Of a stretch of DNA of 32,330 bases, positions 3,954 through 10,322 are shown piece after piece (within the stretch, counting starts at the first letter, position 1; the number at the start of each line of letters is the position of its first letter). Source of the DNA: an uncultured Flavobacteriales bacterium. GTDB taxonomy: Bacteria > Bacteroidota > Bacteroidia > Palsa-965. Where the stretch lies: positions 1-32,330 of the forward strand of contig CAIQQJ010000064.1 in assembly GCA_903873905.1 (NCBI GenBank). The letters run 5' to 3'. The position numbers were made by a program, and so were the translations under genes. A model generated the notes under the pieces. The model was not told the origin of the DNA, ran no database searches, and worked only from the letters and a program-made list of their open reading frames with translations.

Positions 3954-5369
3954 ATGCCTGCCAAGAACCCCGAAATGCCATTAATCCCTATAAATCCAAG
4001 AGCTTCTGAAGCTTACTTTAAAAGTCTGGCCGAAAACCTACCACACTTCATGGCCATTCTCGATCCGGAAAATTTTAAAATAAAATCCATAAATAGAGCA
4101 CAGGATGGTTTTACAGTGGAGGATATTATTGGTAAAGAGATTTTTGATTTCATTCTAATTGAAAACAAGGAAATCTATATACAAAAACTAGAAGAGTTAA
4201 AACAAACAGGAAATACTTTGGTTCTTGATGTTGAATCAGCTTCTAAACGTTACCCCAGTGGAAAAGCATGGTACCATGCGAACATCTCAATTATTTATGG
4301 AGAGGAAAATTCTGTCGAAGCTATTTTAGTCGTCTACGAAGATATTTCTGAAAAGAAATTAAAAGAAATTGAAAACATAAATGCCAGAGAGAGAATAAAT
4401 GCGATTATCAATAATACCAGCGATATTATTTGTTCCATTGACAACAATTATAATTTATTGGAGTTCAATAATACGTTTGAACAAATTATCAAGAAGGGAT
4501 TTGGCATTGAATTAATTTCTGGCAAGCCAATATTTGAATTTATTGATCCACAAAGGCACGAAAGCCTGAAAGTCATTTATGCTAGAGTTCAACAGGGTGA
4601 AACCTGCAATGATGTTTCCCGATTTCTCACAAAATCTGGTTTGGTTTTATATAATGAAACCAGTTTCAATCCCATTTATAATTCGGAGAAACAAATAAGT
4701 GGAATCAGTATTTTTTCAAAGGACATCACAGAGCGGGTGAAAAATGAGCAGAAAACTACAGCTGCTTTAAAGGAAAAAGAAGTTTTGCTGGCGGAAATTC
4801 ATCATCGGATAAAAAACAATTTGGCAATGGTTTCCGGTTTATTGGAATTGCAAGAAATGAATATCAACAATACGGAGGCAAAAGAAGCGCTTGCACAAAG
4901 CAGAAAACGAATAAAATCAACTGCCCTAATTCACGAACTTTTATATCGTAGTGAATCATTTCAAAACATCAATCTGAAAGATTATCTGTCGGAATTATTC
5001 CAACACTTGAAAATCAACGATAAAGTTCAACTTGTTTTAAAAGGGAATGATGTCAATCTCAATCTGACCACTGCAATGCCTTTGGGTTTGATGATCAATG
5101 AAATCATGCTGAATTCATTTAAACATTCTCACAAGGATGGCACTGAAGGAAAAACTGAAATTGAACTCATAAGCAATTCGAATTCATTGGTAATTAATTA
5201 TTGTGACTGCAAAGGAAACTTTCCTGTTCACATAGATTTTAAAAACTCAAAAACAACCGGACTCGCACTCATTCATACTTTTGCAGCTCAATTAGACGGA
5301 AGCATTGAATTGATTTGCAATGCACCACCAAAATATAAAATTCAAATTCCCACAAATGACAATCAATAA
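3954..5369 (+). CDS. Soluble PAS-PAS sensor histidine kinase (HisKA_2 type)
   Basis: A 471-residue cytosolic kinase with no membrane segment. Two PAS-like domains occupy roughly residues 18-135 and 145-262, so the signal is probably internal (redox, ligand or light). A HisKA_2 dimerisation domain follows with EIHHRIKNN at 281-289 (His283 the likely phospho-acceptor). A compact HATPase domain comes next, with the N-box around 379-392 (LMINEIMLNSF) and TGLALI at 435-440. This class often phosphorylates stand-alone receivers or acts in stress or light signalling in other bacteria. The downstream receiver gene overlaps its last 14 bases, making it the obvious partner. It sits behind a good TAnnTTTG promoter. 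Confidence 0.9.
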   Translation: MPAKNPEMPLIPINPRASEAYFKSLAENLPHFMAILDPENFKIKSINRAQDGFTVEDIIGKEIFDFILIENKEIYIQKLEELKQTGNTLVLDVESASKRYPSGKAWYHANISIIYGEENSVEAILVVYEDISEKKLKEIENINARERINAIINNTSDIICSIDNNYNLLEFNNTFEQIIKKGFGIELISGKPIFEFIDPQRHESLKVIYARVQQGETCNDVSRFLTKSGLVLYNETSFNPIYNSEKQISGISIFSKDITERVKNEQKTTAALKEKEVLLAEIHHRIKNNLAMVSGLLELQEMNINNTEAKEALAQSRKRIKSTALIHELLYRSESFQNINLKDYLSELFQHLKINDKVQLVLKGNDVNLNLTTAMPLGLMINEIMLNSFKHSHKDGTEGKTEIELISNSNSLVINYCDCKGNFPVHIDFKNSKTTGLALIHTFAAQLDGSIELICNAPPKYKIQIPTNDNQ

Positions 5370-5718
5370 AAATATTTTGATTGCCGAAGATGAATTGGTG
5401 ATCGCAAAGGTTTTGCAGATGCAATTGGAGAGAACTGGATACCAGGTAGAAAATGTTCCCAATGGAAACGATGTTTTCAATAAGGTAAATGAAATGAAAC
5501 CAATTTTTATCATTCTCGATGTGCAGTTGAAAAACAACACAAGTGGCCTTGATGCAGGAAAGAAGATTCGGGAAGCGGGCATTAATACACCTATCATTTT
5601 CACAACAGGCAATTCTTATGACCACACTGTGCAATTAGTGAAGGACATTGAGCACGCGAAAGTATTGACAAAACCGGTGCTGTTTGAACAACTGTTGGCG
5701 ATGATAAAACAATTCTGA
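5356..5718 (+). CDS. Single-domain response regulator
   Basis: The 120-residue protein is one receiver domain and nothing else. Acidic residues E11/D12, phospho-acceptor Asp55 (IILDVQL), Thr83/Thr84 and Lys106 (LTKP) are all present. The start at 5356 is chosen because MTINKNILIAEDE is a canonical receiver opening. A further upstream Met would only add kinase-overlapping sequence. The 14-base overlap with the kinase stop suggests translational coupling. With no output domain, it probably acts through protein-protein contact or as a phospho-relay intermediate. It ends only 6 bases from the convergent msrB stop, so readthrough antisense is likely. Confidence 0.92.
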   Translation: MTINKNILIAEDELVIAKVLQMQLERTGYQVENVPNGNDVFNKVNEMKPIFIILDVQLKNNTSGLDAGKKIREAGINTPIIFTTGNSYDHTVQLVKDIEHAKVLTKPVLFEQLLAMIKQF

Positions 5719-5724
5719 ACAGCC

Positions 5725-6237
5725 CTACTCTTTCACAAAAATCAAGGCCCCAGAATTAATACAAAATCGTTGGAAAGTTGGTGGTGGTCCATCATCAAAT
5801 ACATGACCCAAATGTCCTCCACATTTTTTACACGTCACTTCCGTACGCACCATTCCCACAGAATTATCTTTTGTATAAGCACAGGTTGATGAATCAAATG
5901 GCATTTTAAAACTAGGCCATCCACAACCAGCATCAAATTTTTCATCGGAAGAAAATAACACCGTGCCACAGGCCGCACATTTGTAAATTCCTTTTTGATC
6001 ATTGTTCCAATAGGCTCCTGTGAATGGTCGCTCCGTTCCTTTTTCACGTAGGATATTATATTGCTCGGGCGTCAATTCCTTTTTCCACTCTGCATCTGTC
6101 TTTACAATTTTTGTCGTATCCATTATTTTATTTTTTGTAGAATCGGTCACCACAACCTTGTTTGCCGGAATTGTATCGGGGCTTGAGCACGCGGAAAAGA
6201 GTGTCAAAAATATTGCCGTGCAAAAAAACATTCTCAT
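5725..6237 (-). CDS. msrB: Peptide-methionine (R)-S-oxide reductase, lipoprotein form
   Basis: MsrB reduces the R-diastereomer of methionine sulfoxide in proteins. The 170-residue product has a full MsrB domain: GCGWPSF at 104-110, Zn-binding pairs Cys87/Cys90 and Cys136/Cys139, and the catalytic Cys159 in RFCINSGAL. Unlike cytosolic MsrB, it begins with a lipoprotein signal (lipobox LFSAC, Cys17) and a ~30-residue linker, so it should repair oxidised proteins in the cell envelope. Its electron donor outside the cytoplasm is not encoded nearby. MRM at the start gives two possible initiators two codons apart; the first is used here. Confidence 0.93.
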
Positions 6238-6364: not shown

Positions 6365-7699
6365 CTACCTGTTGTGCTTTAACATAACTCTATATTTCCC
6401 TAGTGAAAAAATCGTTCCCTCCGCTTCTTTTCCCAAGTGAACATTTGCACCAGTTGCCGCTCCAACACGATTCACAACACTGCTGGTCAAATCAAATCCT
6501 GTAACATTGCCACTCTGATTATTACTGGCTGTGTAAGCTGAATAAATTGTATTTCTATCTTGAGCATTCTCCTGATCTCCATTAAAACTATTATCCAATT
6601 TCTTTTTCATCCAACGCATCGCTGCTTGGCGTAATGAAATATCGTTGCTTGCAACAGGCGAATTGGATTTGAATGTTGCATAATTATAGTACGCATCCGT
6701 AAAGTCAACATGCGCATTAATCCGATTTTTGAGAGGACCATTTGTATAATTACATGCAAGTGCAACAAACGGATCCTTTTCATTTACATTGGGCAAAGGA
6801 ACCAAAATGTCATTCGTTTTGTTTTTCGGATTTCCGTTTGATTCAATTGGATTGGGAACATTATCATGACCACTGTTATTCGCCATCTGATCATTGGAAT
6901 GTGGCAATGGAGAAATTTGTTTTTTTGAATTTGAAGTATCAATCTTGGCAAGATCACCTTTGTCCTTTTTCACTTCGTCATTTCCAGAATAATTGAAAAA
7001 GAAAATTCCCAGCAACAAGGCAAAAACGGCAGCAGCGGCAAAACGAATATCGCGCATCCACCAAAAACCTCCACGATCATTTTCCTCCCGTTTCAATGAT
7101 TCCTTGTCTTCAAATACAACCGAAGTGTCAGCGGAAAGTTTTGTTTGTTTATAAAGTGCAAATGCATTTTGCTGTTCCACACTTCCTGCAAGTGAAGCGG
7201 TAAAACCTTTTTCTTCCTCCGCATTCAACAAGCCTTCCATCGAAGCAATTGCCATTTCATCGAAATCCTCTTCTGAAACAAGAACCGATTTCATCAAGGA
7301 AGCCTTGTGTTCGAAAACAATACCTTCATCCGGAACTAGAATCGCTTTACGCAACAAATCCAACTCAGTTCTTTTCGAAGGATGCAAAACAATAAAATTT
7401 TCCAATGCAATTTTTTCTTCCGCACTCGTCAGTCCTTCCACTTCAGCAACAAAATATTCTTCATAATTCAATTCATTTATTCCGTCAGCTAATTCAACCG
7501 ATTTTTTCAAATCAGCCTTCCCATCGAAATGAACTTTTTTGTCGGGTGAAAAGGATACTTCTTCATAACTGTCAAAAACTTCCCGCAAGTCCGGATTCAA
7601 AATCAAAAATGAAAACAAAGCTTCCACCCCTTCTTTCGAAAGATTTCCCTCGTAATAATCGAGGAACCAGGCTTCACAATTTTCGCGATCGATGGACAT
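6365..7699 (-). CDS. Probable anti-sigma factor with three tandem cytoplasmic repeats
   Basis: A 444-residue protein directly downstream of an ECF sigma gene (71 bases apart, same strand). The N-terminal half is three copies of one ~60-residue unit at about 6-66, 78-137 and 144-204. Each has an EG-turn, a Glu-rich helix, and a closing motif such as VHFDGKADLKK, IVFEHKASLMK or VVFEDKESLKR. One membrane helix lies at about 218-236 (AAAAVFALLLGIFFF), followed by a ~205-residue periplasmic tail rich in Asn and Ser, with no recognised domain. The topology (cytosolic N-terminus, one helix, periplasmic sensor) matches anti-sigma factors. I see no zinc-type ZAS HxxxCxxC motif and no FecR domain. The anti-sigma role is inferred from position and topology. 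Confidence 0.65.
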   Translation of the reverse strand: MSIDRENCEAWFLDYYEGNLSKEGVEALFSFLILNPDLREVFDSYEEVSFSPDKKVHFDGKADLKKSVELADGINELNYEEYFVAEVEGLTSAEEKIALENFIVLHPSKRTELDLLRKAILVPDEGIVFEHKASLMKSVLVSEEDFDEMAIASMEGLLNAEEEKGFTASLAGSVEQQNAFALYKQTKLSADTSVVFEDKESLKREENDRGGFWWMRDIRFAAAAVFALLLGIFFFNYSGNDEVKKDKGDLAKIDTSNSKKQISPLPHSNDQMANNSGHDNVPNPIESNGNPKNKTNDILVPLPNVNEKDPFVALACNYTNGPLKNRINAHVDFTDAYYNYATFKSNSPVASNDISLRQAAMRWMKKKLDNSFNGDQENAQDRNTIYSAYTASNNQSGNVTGFDLTSSVVNRVGAATGANVHLGKEAEGTIFSLGKYRVMLKHNR

Positions 7700-8256: not shown

Positions 8257-8392
8257 TTTAGGTCAGGTCTGCTCATAAGACGCACAAGGAAGGCCTCTTG
8301 TTACAGCTAAGGTAGAATAAATCGTAAAAAGCTGGTTTTAAGATGTTTTGGAGCGGAAAATCGTATGTATTTTTTAGCACCTCACGCGCTTT

Positions 8393-8526: not shown

Positions 8527-9540
8527 TCAGAACGGATCGCTGAATTGTTCTTGATGTGTACTTACGGTATCCGTTAGTGTTTTCAAAAATGCAACAAGGT
8601 CAGCTTTCTCTTGCGTGCTCAACAACAAGCCGTACAATTTTGCAGGCTTCGTCATAATCGGATCAACAGTTGGCGTAACATGCACTCCCGAATTATAATG
8701 GTCCACCACTTGCTCCAATGTTTGAAAACGGCCATCGTGCATATACGGAGCTGTCAATTCAATATTGCGAAGTGTCGGCGATTTGAATTTTCCCAAGTCA
8801 GCCGAATTGCCGGTTACATTATAACGCCCCGCATTCACACCGACAAAAAGTGAATCGATTCCGTTGTTGTGAAAACTTTCATCTGTAAAAAGTCCTGGCG
8901 TATGACAGTGAAAACAATCGCCTTTCTCTGTATAAAAAATGGTCATTCCATTCAATTCCGACAAAGTCAAATTCTCTTCATAACGCTTGTACCGATCAAA
9001 CTTTGAATTGCAAGAAATAATGGAGCGCACATATTGCGCAAGGGCGTAAGAAACTTCTTTGGAAGTAACTTGTGCCGTTCCAAAAACCTGAATGAATTTT
9101 GGTTGGTAAAAAGCACTATTACTCAATCGAACTAAATCAGTATGAAAAAATTGTTCCACTTCAAATTTCATTGCTGTTTCAACATCTCCTTCCACAAGTC
9201 CATTCCACAAAAAATGATTTCCCCAACCCAAATTTATGTGTGCAAGAGAATTTGCTGCGTAAGATGAAAACCCTTCTGCTTGATGGTGGCAATTTCCACA
9301 TCTACGTCCATCATTGGAAAGAATTGTATCGTAATACAAAAAACGACCCAGTGCAATTCCTTCAACCGTGAGAGGATTGTCGGGATTCAATGTCATTTGA
9401 GGAAAATAGGATGGATACTCCAATTGAACAGGCGTCAAGGAACTCGCAGGAGGCACAACAATCGGTTCGTCTTTTTTACAACTATTGACAATAATTATCG
9501 GTAGCAAAAAAACAAATAAAATAAAAACGGACTTTCTCAT
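8527..9540 (-). CDS. Di-haem cytochrome c peroxidase lipoprotein, MbnH/MauG-like
   Basis: A 337-residue lipoprotein (start at 9540, MRKSVFILF; lipobox VNSC, Cys21). An in-frame Met nine codons upstream lies inside the preceding gene and is not used. Two haem-binding motifs are present: CGNCH at 81-85 and CFHCH at 209-213. YMHDGRF (Met267) and the PTLRNIELTAPYMHDG block are typical of the bacterial CcpA/MauG family. The gene starts two bases after the stop of an MbnP-like gene. Known MbnH enzymes are diheme members that oxidise a tryptophan of their MbnP partner to kynurenine. By context this is the likely role, rather than plain H2O2 detoxification; that is inference. Confidence 0.9.
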   Translation of the reverse strand: MRKSVFILFVFLLPIIIVNSCKKDEPIVVPPASSLTPVQLEYPSYFPQMTLNPDNPLTVEGIALGRFLYYDTILSNDGRRCGNCHHQAEGFSSYAANSLAHINLGWGNHFLWNGLVEGDVETAMKFEVEQFFHTDLVRLSNSAFYQPKFIQVFGTAQVTSKEVSYALAQYVRSIISCNSKFDRYKRYEENLTLSELNGMTIFYTEKGDCFHCHTPGLFTDESFHNNGIDSLFVGVNAGRYNVTGNSADLGKFKSPTLRNIELTAPYMHDGRFQTLEQVVDHYNSGVHVTPTVDPIMTKPAKLYGLLLSTQEKADLVAFLKTLTDTVSTHQEQFSDPF

Positions 9541-9542
9541 TG

Positions 9543-10322
9543 CTATCGGGTTTGAATTATGGAACACATGTCACAAGCATTATTCGATATTCGTCGCATC
9601 AATAAGGTATCACCCATTGTATAGTTTCCATCCAAATCAAGATCATATGTATATGGATTTTTAAAAATCTCATTCATATTCATGTTGAAATCCAATTCAT
9701 GCGAAACTCCATTCAAATAAATTTCTGCATTCCCCTGTAACAACGACTGAAATCCCGGTTTTCCAAGATGCATTGCATAACCATAAGAAGTGATTCCTGA
9801 AGTAAAACTTCCTTCCATTTTCATAAAATGATAACCACCTCCCAAATTTTCAGGCCAAAACATATTTTGATTTGCCATTGTATTGGGCAATAAACCAAAC
9901 GTATCTCGTTCGGAAGGAACACCAAGCAGAGCAGAAAAACTTACTACATGACCAGTTCCTGGATTACTAATGGTAATCGTCAACGTTGTTGAATCGCGTC
10001 CATCAACATAATGGACATTATGATCTATGAATTGTCTGCCATCCGAAGTATTGAAAGTAATATTTGATAAATAATAATTCAAACGTTCAACACTGAAATG
10101 ATTTCCCGCAGCATTTACAAATTGAATTGTGTCATATGCAATCGGATTATTATCCACCAAATGTTTTAAATGGATCTTAACTTGATTTGGAACACCTCCT
10201 GTAGTAGTCAAAGGTGGATCCTTTTTGCAGGAAATAATTACTGTAAAAAATAAAATCAATAAGAATGAAATAATATTCAATCTTGCTTTCCCAGAAATAA
10301 TCCAAAAATAATTTTTCAACAT
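9543..10322 (-). CDS. MbnP-like copper-binding family lipoprotein
   Basis: A 259-residue lipoprotein (Cys32, ISCKKD) that looks like the MbnP family: a beta-rich domain opening with VKIHLKHLVDNNPI, then FSVERLNYYLSNI, and the FWPENLGGGYHFMKMEG segment at 155-171. In studied MbnP proteins, a Trp converted to kynurenine by the diheme partner is needed for copper binding; Trp156 is a candidate here. It lies directly upstream of the diheme peroxidase in an apparent two-gene operon. Odd points are a long cytoplasmic/signal lead of 31 residues and a C-terminal CDMC pair (Cys250/Cys253). No methanobactin precursor or core genes are nearby. The family call is made from memory of motifs. Confidence 0.7.
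   Translation of the reverse strand: MLKNYFWIISGKARLNIISFLLILFFTVIISCKKDPPLTTTGGVPNQVKIHLKHLVDNNPIAYDTIQFVNAAGNHFSVERLNYYLSNITFNTSDGRQFIDHNVHYVDGRDSTTLTITISNPGTGHVVSFSALLGVPSERDTFGLLPNTMANQNMFWPENLGGGYHFMKMEGSFTSGITSYGYAMHLGKPGFQSLLQGNAEIYLNGVSHELDFNMNMNEIFKNPYTYDLDLDGNYTMGDTLLMRRISNNACDMCSIIQTR

Follow-up and report, generated by a model that had tools for sequence, protein, structure and literature searches.

A putative membrane-anchored anti-sigma factor with tandem class I-like domains in an uncultured Flavobacteriales bacterium and its relatives

An ECF sigma factor gene followed by a three-unit membrane protein

The window analyzed here is a 32,330-nt stretch of contig CAIQQJ010000064.1 (GenBank assembly GCA_903873905.1) from an uncultured Flavobacteriales bacterium (GTDB lineage Bacteroidota; class Bacteroidia; Palsa-965). 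An ECF sigma factor gene lies 71 bases upstream of, and on the same strand as, a gene encoding a membrane protein in which three repeated units stand in tandem (Table 1; L and G numbers are our labels for loci and genomes). By the limits of a profile built for the unit, each is ~66 residues long and all three precede a single transmembrane helix; the hydrophobic segment, which peaks at aa 217, comes straight after unit 3. Elsewhere in the window, a MauG-type di-heme peroxidase gene that overlaps an MbnP gene (8527–10322) shares the strand of the sigma gene and lies upstream of it, and a PAS/HisKA_2 histidine kinase gene (3954–5718) overlaps by 50 bases the gene of a 132-aa protein that, judged by eye, resembles a response regulator.

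Table 1. Features of the sigma/anti-sigma locus, together with promoter-associated genes elsewhere in the same genome
Feature	Position	Strand	Basis
Cognate ECF sigma factor, 161 aa	7771..8256	(-)	Pfam Sigma70_r2 and r4_2; NCBIfam NF058625 best, below cut-off
ECF-type promoter motif TGTAAC-N17-CGTCTTA before sigma gene	8276..8305	(-)	Motif alignment, counts versus controls
Putative anti-sigma factor gene, 444 aa, ATG start	6365..7699	(-)	ORF list, repeat scores, hydropathy, AlphaFold2
Unit 1 (aa 4-69), conserved "first" lineage: NCEAWFLDYYEG helix 1, F and NP of helix 2/3	7493..7690	(-)	Repeat scores, profile, unit tree, conservation
Unit 2 (aa 75-140), "mid" unit	7280..7477	(-)	Repeat scores, profile, unit tree
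Unit 3 (aa 142-207), "last" unit, with conserved T-K-L-x-x-D-x-x-V-V-F-x-x-K-x-x-L segment	7079..7276	(-)	Repeat scores, profile, unit tree, conservation
Transmembrane segment (aa 217-235)	6995..7051	(-)	Hydropathy peak 2.1 at aa 217; predicted helix aa 199-238
Periplasmic stretch (aa 242-351), probably disordered	6647..6976	(-)	pLDDT <50
C-terminal region (aa 356-441), three helices and three strands	6377..6634	(-)	AlphaFold2
Methionine sulfoxide reductase B (SelR) lipoprotein gene, directly 3' of anti-sigma gene	5725..6237	(-)	SelR E 1.4e-50
DUF2807 plus outer-membrane barrel gene, and barrel gene, after strict promoter sites in the window's genome	L240 64-1473; L241 735-1457	(-)	

The homology of the units was evaluated by shuffling. 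The summed pairwise local score for the three thirds of aa 1–208 is 226, versus a maximum of 112 in 2000 shuffles. Pairs 1–2 and 2–3 score 94 and 77, values reached by none of 5000 shuffles each, and pair 1–3 scores 55, which was reached by two of 5000. This confirms the three repeats reported in a first-pass annotation made from the sequence alone, with limits slightly longer than the 6–66, 78–137, and 144–204 given there. The EG turn that it described is indeed common to units 1, 2, and 3. The shared ending V-F-x-x-K-x-x-L-K that it listed is recognizable as a motif, with small departures in each copy (V-H-F in unit 1, L-M-K in unit 2, and L-K-R in unit 3). Searched against the window's genome, the unit profile returns three matches, all in this one gene, and two weak others (E of 0.05 and 0.77). 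Neither Pfam nor NCBIfam gives a match to the window protein itself at E ≤ 1, and PDB sequences give none.

The unit resembles class I anti-sigma domains without zinc

With an alignment of 23 three-unit proteins as input, AlphaFold2 predicts each unit as three helices plus a fourth (unit 1: aa 8–16, 22–34, 37–47, and 61–72; unit 2: aa 79–87, 93–105, 108–119, and 132–136, the last of these short and of low confidence; unit 3: aa 143–154, 160–172, 174–186, and 199–238), and the fourth helix of unit 3 continues into the membrane helix. This prediction corresponds to the three-helix bundle, linker, and fourth helix of a class I anti-sigma domain, the anatomy of which is given as three helices plus a fourth in PMC7406223. 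The mean pLDDT is 63.7, with very low confidence for aa 242–351, and the pTM is only 0.23; therefore, the arrangement of the domains is not predicted. The modeled C-terminal region is likely the sensor end of the protein, and its strand end can be discerned by eye in many relatives.

Foldseek alone returned nothing at E ≤ 0.001 for the model. In a second look by structural alignment with VIA-align 2 against 313 chains, within which the ranking holds, the top three were the class I anti-sigma domains of RsiW (5wuq_D on unit 3; Z 6.2, rmsd 7.0, 68 residues aligned), RslA (3hug_B on unit 1; Z 5.9, rmsd 3.9, 58 aligned), and MucA (6in7_A on unit 3; Z 5.0, rmsd 2.4, 53 aligned), and the next row had a Z of 4.1. 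For a small helical domain this is a moderate match, at Z values also reached by chance in helical bundles. That three independent anti-sigma factors head a ranking based on a predicted structure agrees with the gene neighborhood.

Sequence comparison indicates a relation to known members that is weak but specific, and below curated cut-offs. When 146 units (first, last, and single units) were scanned singly, the two most frequent NCBIfam families at E ≤ 0.1 were PRK13920 (anti-sigmaE; 18 units) and NF052375 (antisigma; nine units). At E ≤ 0.5, the most frequent Pfam family was zf-HC2 (nine units), closely followed by DUF7667 (eight). All of the matches to anti-sigma models are weak and below their curated cut-offs. 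Minor matches to the Pfam MHB heme-binding family and the NCBIfam hemophore family TIGR04529 were found for three of the 146 units each; the MHB match is above its cut-off in L020, where the matched stretch spans about half a unit. We took DUF7667, MHB, and TIGR04529 to be chance matches rather than the identity of the unit. A profile of all 379 units scores E. coli RseA (aa 1–80) at 21.8, with an hhalign probability of only 23%, versus 14.1 for the best of 403 decoys. With a profile of the non-first units, RseA is again above all 403 decoys, and with the first-unit profile alone, three of the 403 score above it. A direct profile search of PDB sequences gave no anti-sigma chain, only matches at chance level.

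The unit profile also matches single stretches elsewhere in the phylum. We examined 20 such places (15 outside the class and five inside), in proteins of 156–354 aa. Nineteen have one confident unit and L238 has two, and 18 of the 20 adjoin an ECF sigma gene. Ten of these proteins were scanned; eight match anti-sigma models at E ≤ 0.001, below curated cut-offs, and three match zf-HC2 weakly.

The zinc motif H-x3-C-x2-C occurs in none of the 379 units, so that its absence from the window's units, already reported in the first-pass annotation, extends to all units collected, and a zinc (ZAS) anti-sigma domain can be rejected. From that absence, the first-pass annotation went on to suggest a separate anti-sigma class. 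We find instead that fold and profile searches place the unit among class I domains, ~44% of which lack the zinc motif according to PMC7406223. The VIA-align 2 top three, the PRK13920 and NF052375 matches, the score of RseA relative to decoys, and the single-domain relatives all count against a class apart. Because of the fold ranking, the profile matches, and the missing zinc motif, the unit is likely a class I anti-sigma domain of the non-zinc kind, as far as the tools used can show.

Tandem units are widespread, and their number varies

At E ≤ 1e-5, the unit is present in 193 of 395 genomes surveyed from the class, representing 101 of its 197 genera in the survey. For a detailed set we combined the window and nine regions of its family with 78 from the other genomes ranked highest in that survey, giving 88 sources with 89 unit-containing ORFs. 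Two units are found in 50 of these, three in 25, one in nine, five in three, and four and six in one each, in counts from a profile that may miss a few units. True single-unit proteins are fewer than nine, because the two one-unit ORFs of L085 are one interrupted gene and the one-unit ORF of L108 is just 74 aa long. In both L085 and L108 the anti-sigma reading frame is apparently broken just after unit 1, leaving ORFs of 72 and 74 aa. In L025 (4361–4624) there is a lone, 87-aa single-unit ORF with no membrane helix or adjoining sigma gene; the same genome has a two-unit gene as well, and this ORF is probably a remnant.

For a second sample, a public genome collection was scanned with the sigma factor as the sole query, and the best 80 of at least 569 relatives were taken. 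A unit gene lies directly 3' in 78 of these best 80, always with at least two units (two in 54, three in 23, and four in one). The exceptions are L145, which ends 23 bases past the sigma gene, and L214, where a two-unit ORF was assigned a start too far upstream. Among the 78 ORFs, two fall short of 150 aa (L201, at a contig end, and L210). The two samples overlap, and the 159 loci with a sigma gene of normal length reduce to 153 with distinct sigma DNA. Among these (the sigma-only part again being the best 80 of at least 569), there are 98 loci with two units, 43 with three, six with one, three with five, two with four, and one with six. Within the window's genus alone, the protein has three units (the window's own genome and G003), five (G002, G005, and G006), or six (G004). 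Unit number shifts quickly between close relatives, and the partner sigma factor stays.

One sigma factor gene accompanies the unit gene

The window's sigma factor scores 109.4 bits against NF058625 (the GFO_1088/PG0214 family ECF model), below the curated cut-off of 130. This is nonetheless the best model for it and for 10 other sigma factors scanned, two of which pass the cut-off (L130 and L137, both beside single-unit proteins).

In 86 of the 89 cases the unit ORF is closely preceded (−150 to +400 bases) by a same-strand sigma ORF, a neighbor typical of class I domains, and in 74 of the 86 pairs the gap is −30 to +35 bases. Among the 86, the sigma ORFs of L093 and L116 are short, and in L085 a single sigma is counted for both unit ORFs. 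Homologs without sigma genes, which the first-pass annotation had named as counterevidence to its reading, come down to two contig ends (L078 and L096) and the 87-aa fragment of L025. The presence or absence of the unit and of a close sigma is concordant in all 12 genomes of the family. Three genomes without units (G001, G008, and G010) are also without a close sigma; G001 is 66% complete and G010 62%. In G009 the sigma beside the unit protein is only 31% identical to the window's. Taken with the neighboring gene, these results support the proposal that the triplicated cytoplasmic domain belongs to an anti-sigma factor, and the window protein is very likely the anti-sigma factor of the ECF sigma encoded beside it.

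Attempts to locate the contact were less informative. In a complex model based on L079 as a fusion (with natural stops and the intergenic stretch read as a linker), the pTM was 0.34 and there was no confident docking. An earlier mirror-tree run was suggestive, but a fuller run with controls was nondiscriminating: in two-unit proteins, the C-terminal end tracks the sigma at 0.235, versus 0.226 and 0.206 for the units, which are not told apart.

A promoter motif links the locus to outer-membrane genes

The motif TGTAAC-N16/17-CGTCNTA lies upstream of the sigma gene in seven of eight aligned family members (L022 is without it). A relaxed form, GTAAC-N15-18-CGT(not G), occurs within 200 bases upstream of the sigma gene at 150 of 159 loci, compared with seven of 795 random stretches, and at 144 of the 153 distinct loci, always with a spacing of 16 or 17 (in both counts the sigma-only part is the best 80 of at least 569). 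The nine loci without it are L022, L024, L108, L130, L134, L137, L203, L213, and L217, and the single-unit L130 and L137 are among them. As judged from these alignments and counts, the motif is probably an autoregulatory ECF promoter across the class, through which the sigma factor would control its own gene, and it should be usable as a probe for the regulon.

The strict pattern, TGTAAC-N16/17-CGTCNTA, occurs three times in the window's genome, a count that is meaningless by itself because the reversed control also gives three. The sites precede the sigma gene, a gene with DUF2807 and an outer-membrane barrel, and a further barrel gene (Table 1). Across the family genomes there are 39 strict sites, versus 24 for the reversed control, a moderate excess. 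Of 30 sites examined there, six precede sigma genes, eight precede barrel/DUF2807 relatives, four precede small secreted proteins, and the remaining 12 were not assigned to these groups. The four small secreted proteins are related to a 114-aa ORF that adjoins the DUF2807 gene of the window's genome, and the family (~110 aa) under the promoter motif is represented by L240 (1547–1891, minus strand), L250, L254, L256, and L261.

Members of the DUF2807 gene family were found in 61 of the 88 sources. In 57 of the 88 (e.g., L060 1817–3124), such a gene immediately follows the anti-sigma gene on the same strand, no more than 400 bases away; the domain was checked by Pfam in three members. No such DUF2807/barrel gene occupies that 3' place in the window. 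Gene neighborhood elsewhere and the promoter in the window's genome thus point to the same family of outer-membrane genes. MsrB relatives also follow closely on the anti-sigma gene in L018, L019, L020, L021, and L023 (the L020 copy is in two pieces), and in the window msrB is probably read through from the sigma/anti-sigma operon. By analogy, the outer-membrane and msrB associations would fit an envelope stress response, as reported for the Reo and Dma systems in PMC13088901, PMC9308784, and PMC13114119.

Specialized units and how they may act

We constructed a tree of 201 units, all longer than 50 residues (L025, L085, L108, and L078 were left out). With units of the same locus disregarded, the nearest relative of a first unit is another first unit in all 79 cases, and that of a last unit is another last unit in 70 of 78. 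The label "first" versus "other" changes three times on the tree, as opposed to at least 49 times in 200 shuffles. Of the 196 units in multi-unit proteins, only eight (six mid and two last) have their nearest relative within the same protein.

Conservation was evaluated for 156 first, 63 mid, and 155 last units (L073 was also left out, and duplicates were down-weighted). First units are conserved in helix 1 and the turn between helices 2 and 3 (N at column 4, 100%; E6, 96%; D11, 96%; Y12, 78%; F28, 100%; P33, 91%). Mid and last units are weaker in both places, and at the D11 and Y12 columns of helix 1 the residues of non-first units are varied, most often A. The segment before helix 4 is conserved in mid and last units (T45, 80% and 78%, respectively; L47, 84% and 83%; D50, 61% and 72%; K58, 93% and 94%), and the helix-4 end F-x-x-K-x-x-L is kept in all unit classes. 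In 24 three-unit proteins, the mean identity of unit 1 is 0.52, versus 0.39 and 0.37 for the other two. On these patterns, unit 1 and the last unit are separate, old, and conserved lineages and the copies are specialized, which we read as a division of labor.

Two explanations raised in the first-pass annotation fare poorly against these data. One is that the repeats include decayed copies, as might follow a recent duplication. It is true that the window's unit 3 is the copy most diverged from unit 1 (the pair that scores 55). But so few units lie closer to a same-protein unit than to one elsewhere, and the last unit has conserved residues of its own, so the tree and the unit-specific conservation lead us to reject decay, to which we attach almost no credence. 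The other is that the units bind several different sigma factors. Candidate partners do exist, in that 13 further places in the window's genome match NF058625 at E ≤ 0.001. Against this, the six genomes of the genus, with 3, 3, 5, 5, 5, and 6 units, hold one close sigma each: in G002–G006 it lies beside the unit gene, at 81%–85% identity to the window's, and the further ECF factors of the genus genomes, among those listed at E ≤ 1e-6, are at most 33% identical. One close sigma per genome makes multiple partners highly improbable, and we rejected them.

The other readings all involve a single sigma factor. Class I domains are described as meeting sigma region 4 with helices 1 and 3 and region 2 with helix 4 and the linker (PMC7406223), and by analogy two units here could divide these contact roles. 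The idea we tentatively prefer, at less than even confidence, is that at least two anti-sigma domains per protein are the rule for this class-wide sigma family, with the first unit gripping one part of the sigma through helix 1, the last another part through the segment between helices 3 and 4, and the number of middle units tuning affinity or release. That the units jointly share one sigma is, to us, likewise possible rather than probable. If instead each unit bound its own molecule of the same sigma, the array would act as a sponge with several seats, and unit number would set the threshold or grade of the response; the helix-4 end kept by all classes and the fast change in number in one genus, beside one close sigma gene each, are what such a device might look like. 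The units are not interchangeable, however, as the grouping of first units and the few label changes on the tree indicate, and helix 1, strongly conserved in first units, is more varied in the others; we are doubtful of the sponge for these reasons. Less likely still is that sigma binding falls to a single unit, either unit 1 or the last, with the remaining units serving as a spacer from the membrane or contacting something else, such as RNA polymerase or a protease adaptor. Conservation is indeed highest in unit 1 and the number of middle units varies, as this would have it, but non-first units keep a conserved segment of their own, which argues against a mere spacer because a spacer would not need one, and all 78 classified sigma-only loci (from the best 80 of at least 569) have at least two units.

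Returning to joint binding of one sigma, the whole can be framed as follows, and we consider this overall explanation probable: a membrane-anchored anti-sigma factor with three non-zinc class I domains, release by an envelope signal, and control of its operon and an outer-membrane regulon. Without stress, the three domains would hold the sigma factor at the inner membrane. A signal from the envelope, received at the periplasmic C-terminal end, would free it, and the freed sigma would then act at TGTAAC-N16/17-CGTC promoters to transcribe outer-membrane genes as well as its own operon, including msrB downstream. The main specific sigma contact may be unit 1, given its strongly conserved helix 1, and a second may be provided by the last unit, in which the stretch from helix 3 to helix 4 is conserved; middle units could be gained or lost with no change of partner.

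Relation to known systems and significance

To our knowledge, solved examples of class I anti-sigma factors have one domain per protein. The window protein is like class I anti-sigma factors (RseA, RsiW, RslA, MucA, and ChrR; PMC7406223) in the three-helix bundle with a fourth helix, the N-terminal position of the domain before one transmembrane helix, and a gene beside an ECF sigma gene. It differs from them in that proteins of this family have one to six domains, mostly two or three, all without the zinc motif, and in being invisible to Pfam and NCBIfam.

The Reo and Dma systems, also of Bacteroidota, by their descriptions combine an anti-sigma domain, a transmembrane helix, and a disordered tether, with an ECF sigma encoded beside. 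The window protein differs in having three units and a short C-terminal end of helices and strands; no outer-membrane barrel was found in it by Pfam, and the part after aa 351 has fewer than 100 residues and three short strands. The single-unit protein of L130, in which the unit is joined to an OMP_b-brl_2 outer-membrane barrel domain, has the architecture described for Dma. With this barrel in L130, and with a sigma there that scores above the NF058625 cut-off, the domain may be common to Dma-type and tandem proteins, in a comparison made with descriptions of Dma. A further described system close to this one is the ECF sigma/anti-sigma pair THC0290_1774-1773 of Flavobacterium psychrophilum (PMC9723704). 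We found no description of tandem anti-sigma domains in the open-access literature searched, a coverage that leaves out the 2013 EcfO/Reo and 2024 Dma1 papers and so is no proof of absence.

The class I domain itself is known. What appears to be new is an anti-sigma factor in which such domains stand in tandem, widespread in the class, with specialized copies and one sigma partner. A domain described as one per sigma is, in this family, mostly found in tandem, and in about half of the class genomes sampled. Class I domains are reported near only 6% of Bacteroidetes ECF genes (according to PMC7406223), and the tandem family may have escaped earlier domain searches, because domain models like those searched fail to see its units. 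The profile is a gain for a phylum in which class I anti-sigma domains are rarely recognized, and the promoter motif allows regulons to be traced in many genomes. The natural series of one to six units offers a means of asking how inhibition depends on valency. If the division of contacts proposed above is true, several domains would be used to hold one sigma factor, and this would go some way toward explaining why class I domains have been seen beside so few ECF genes of these bacteria.
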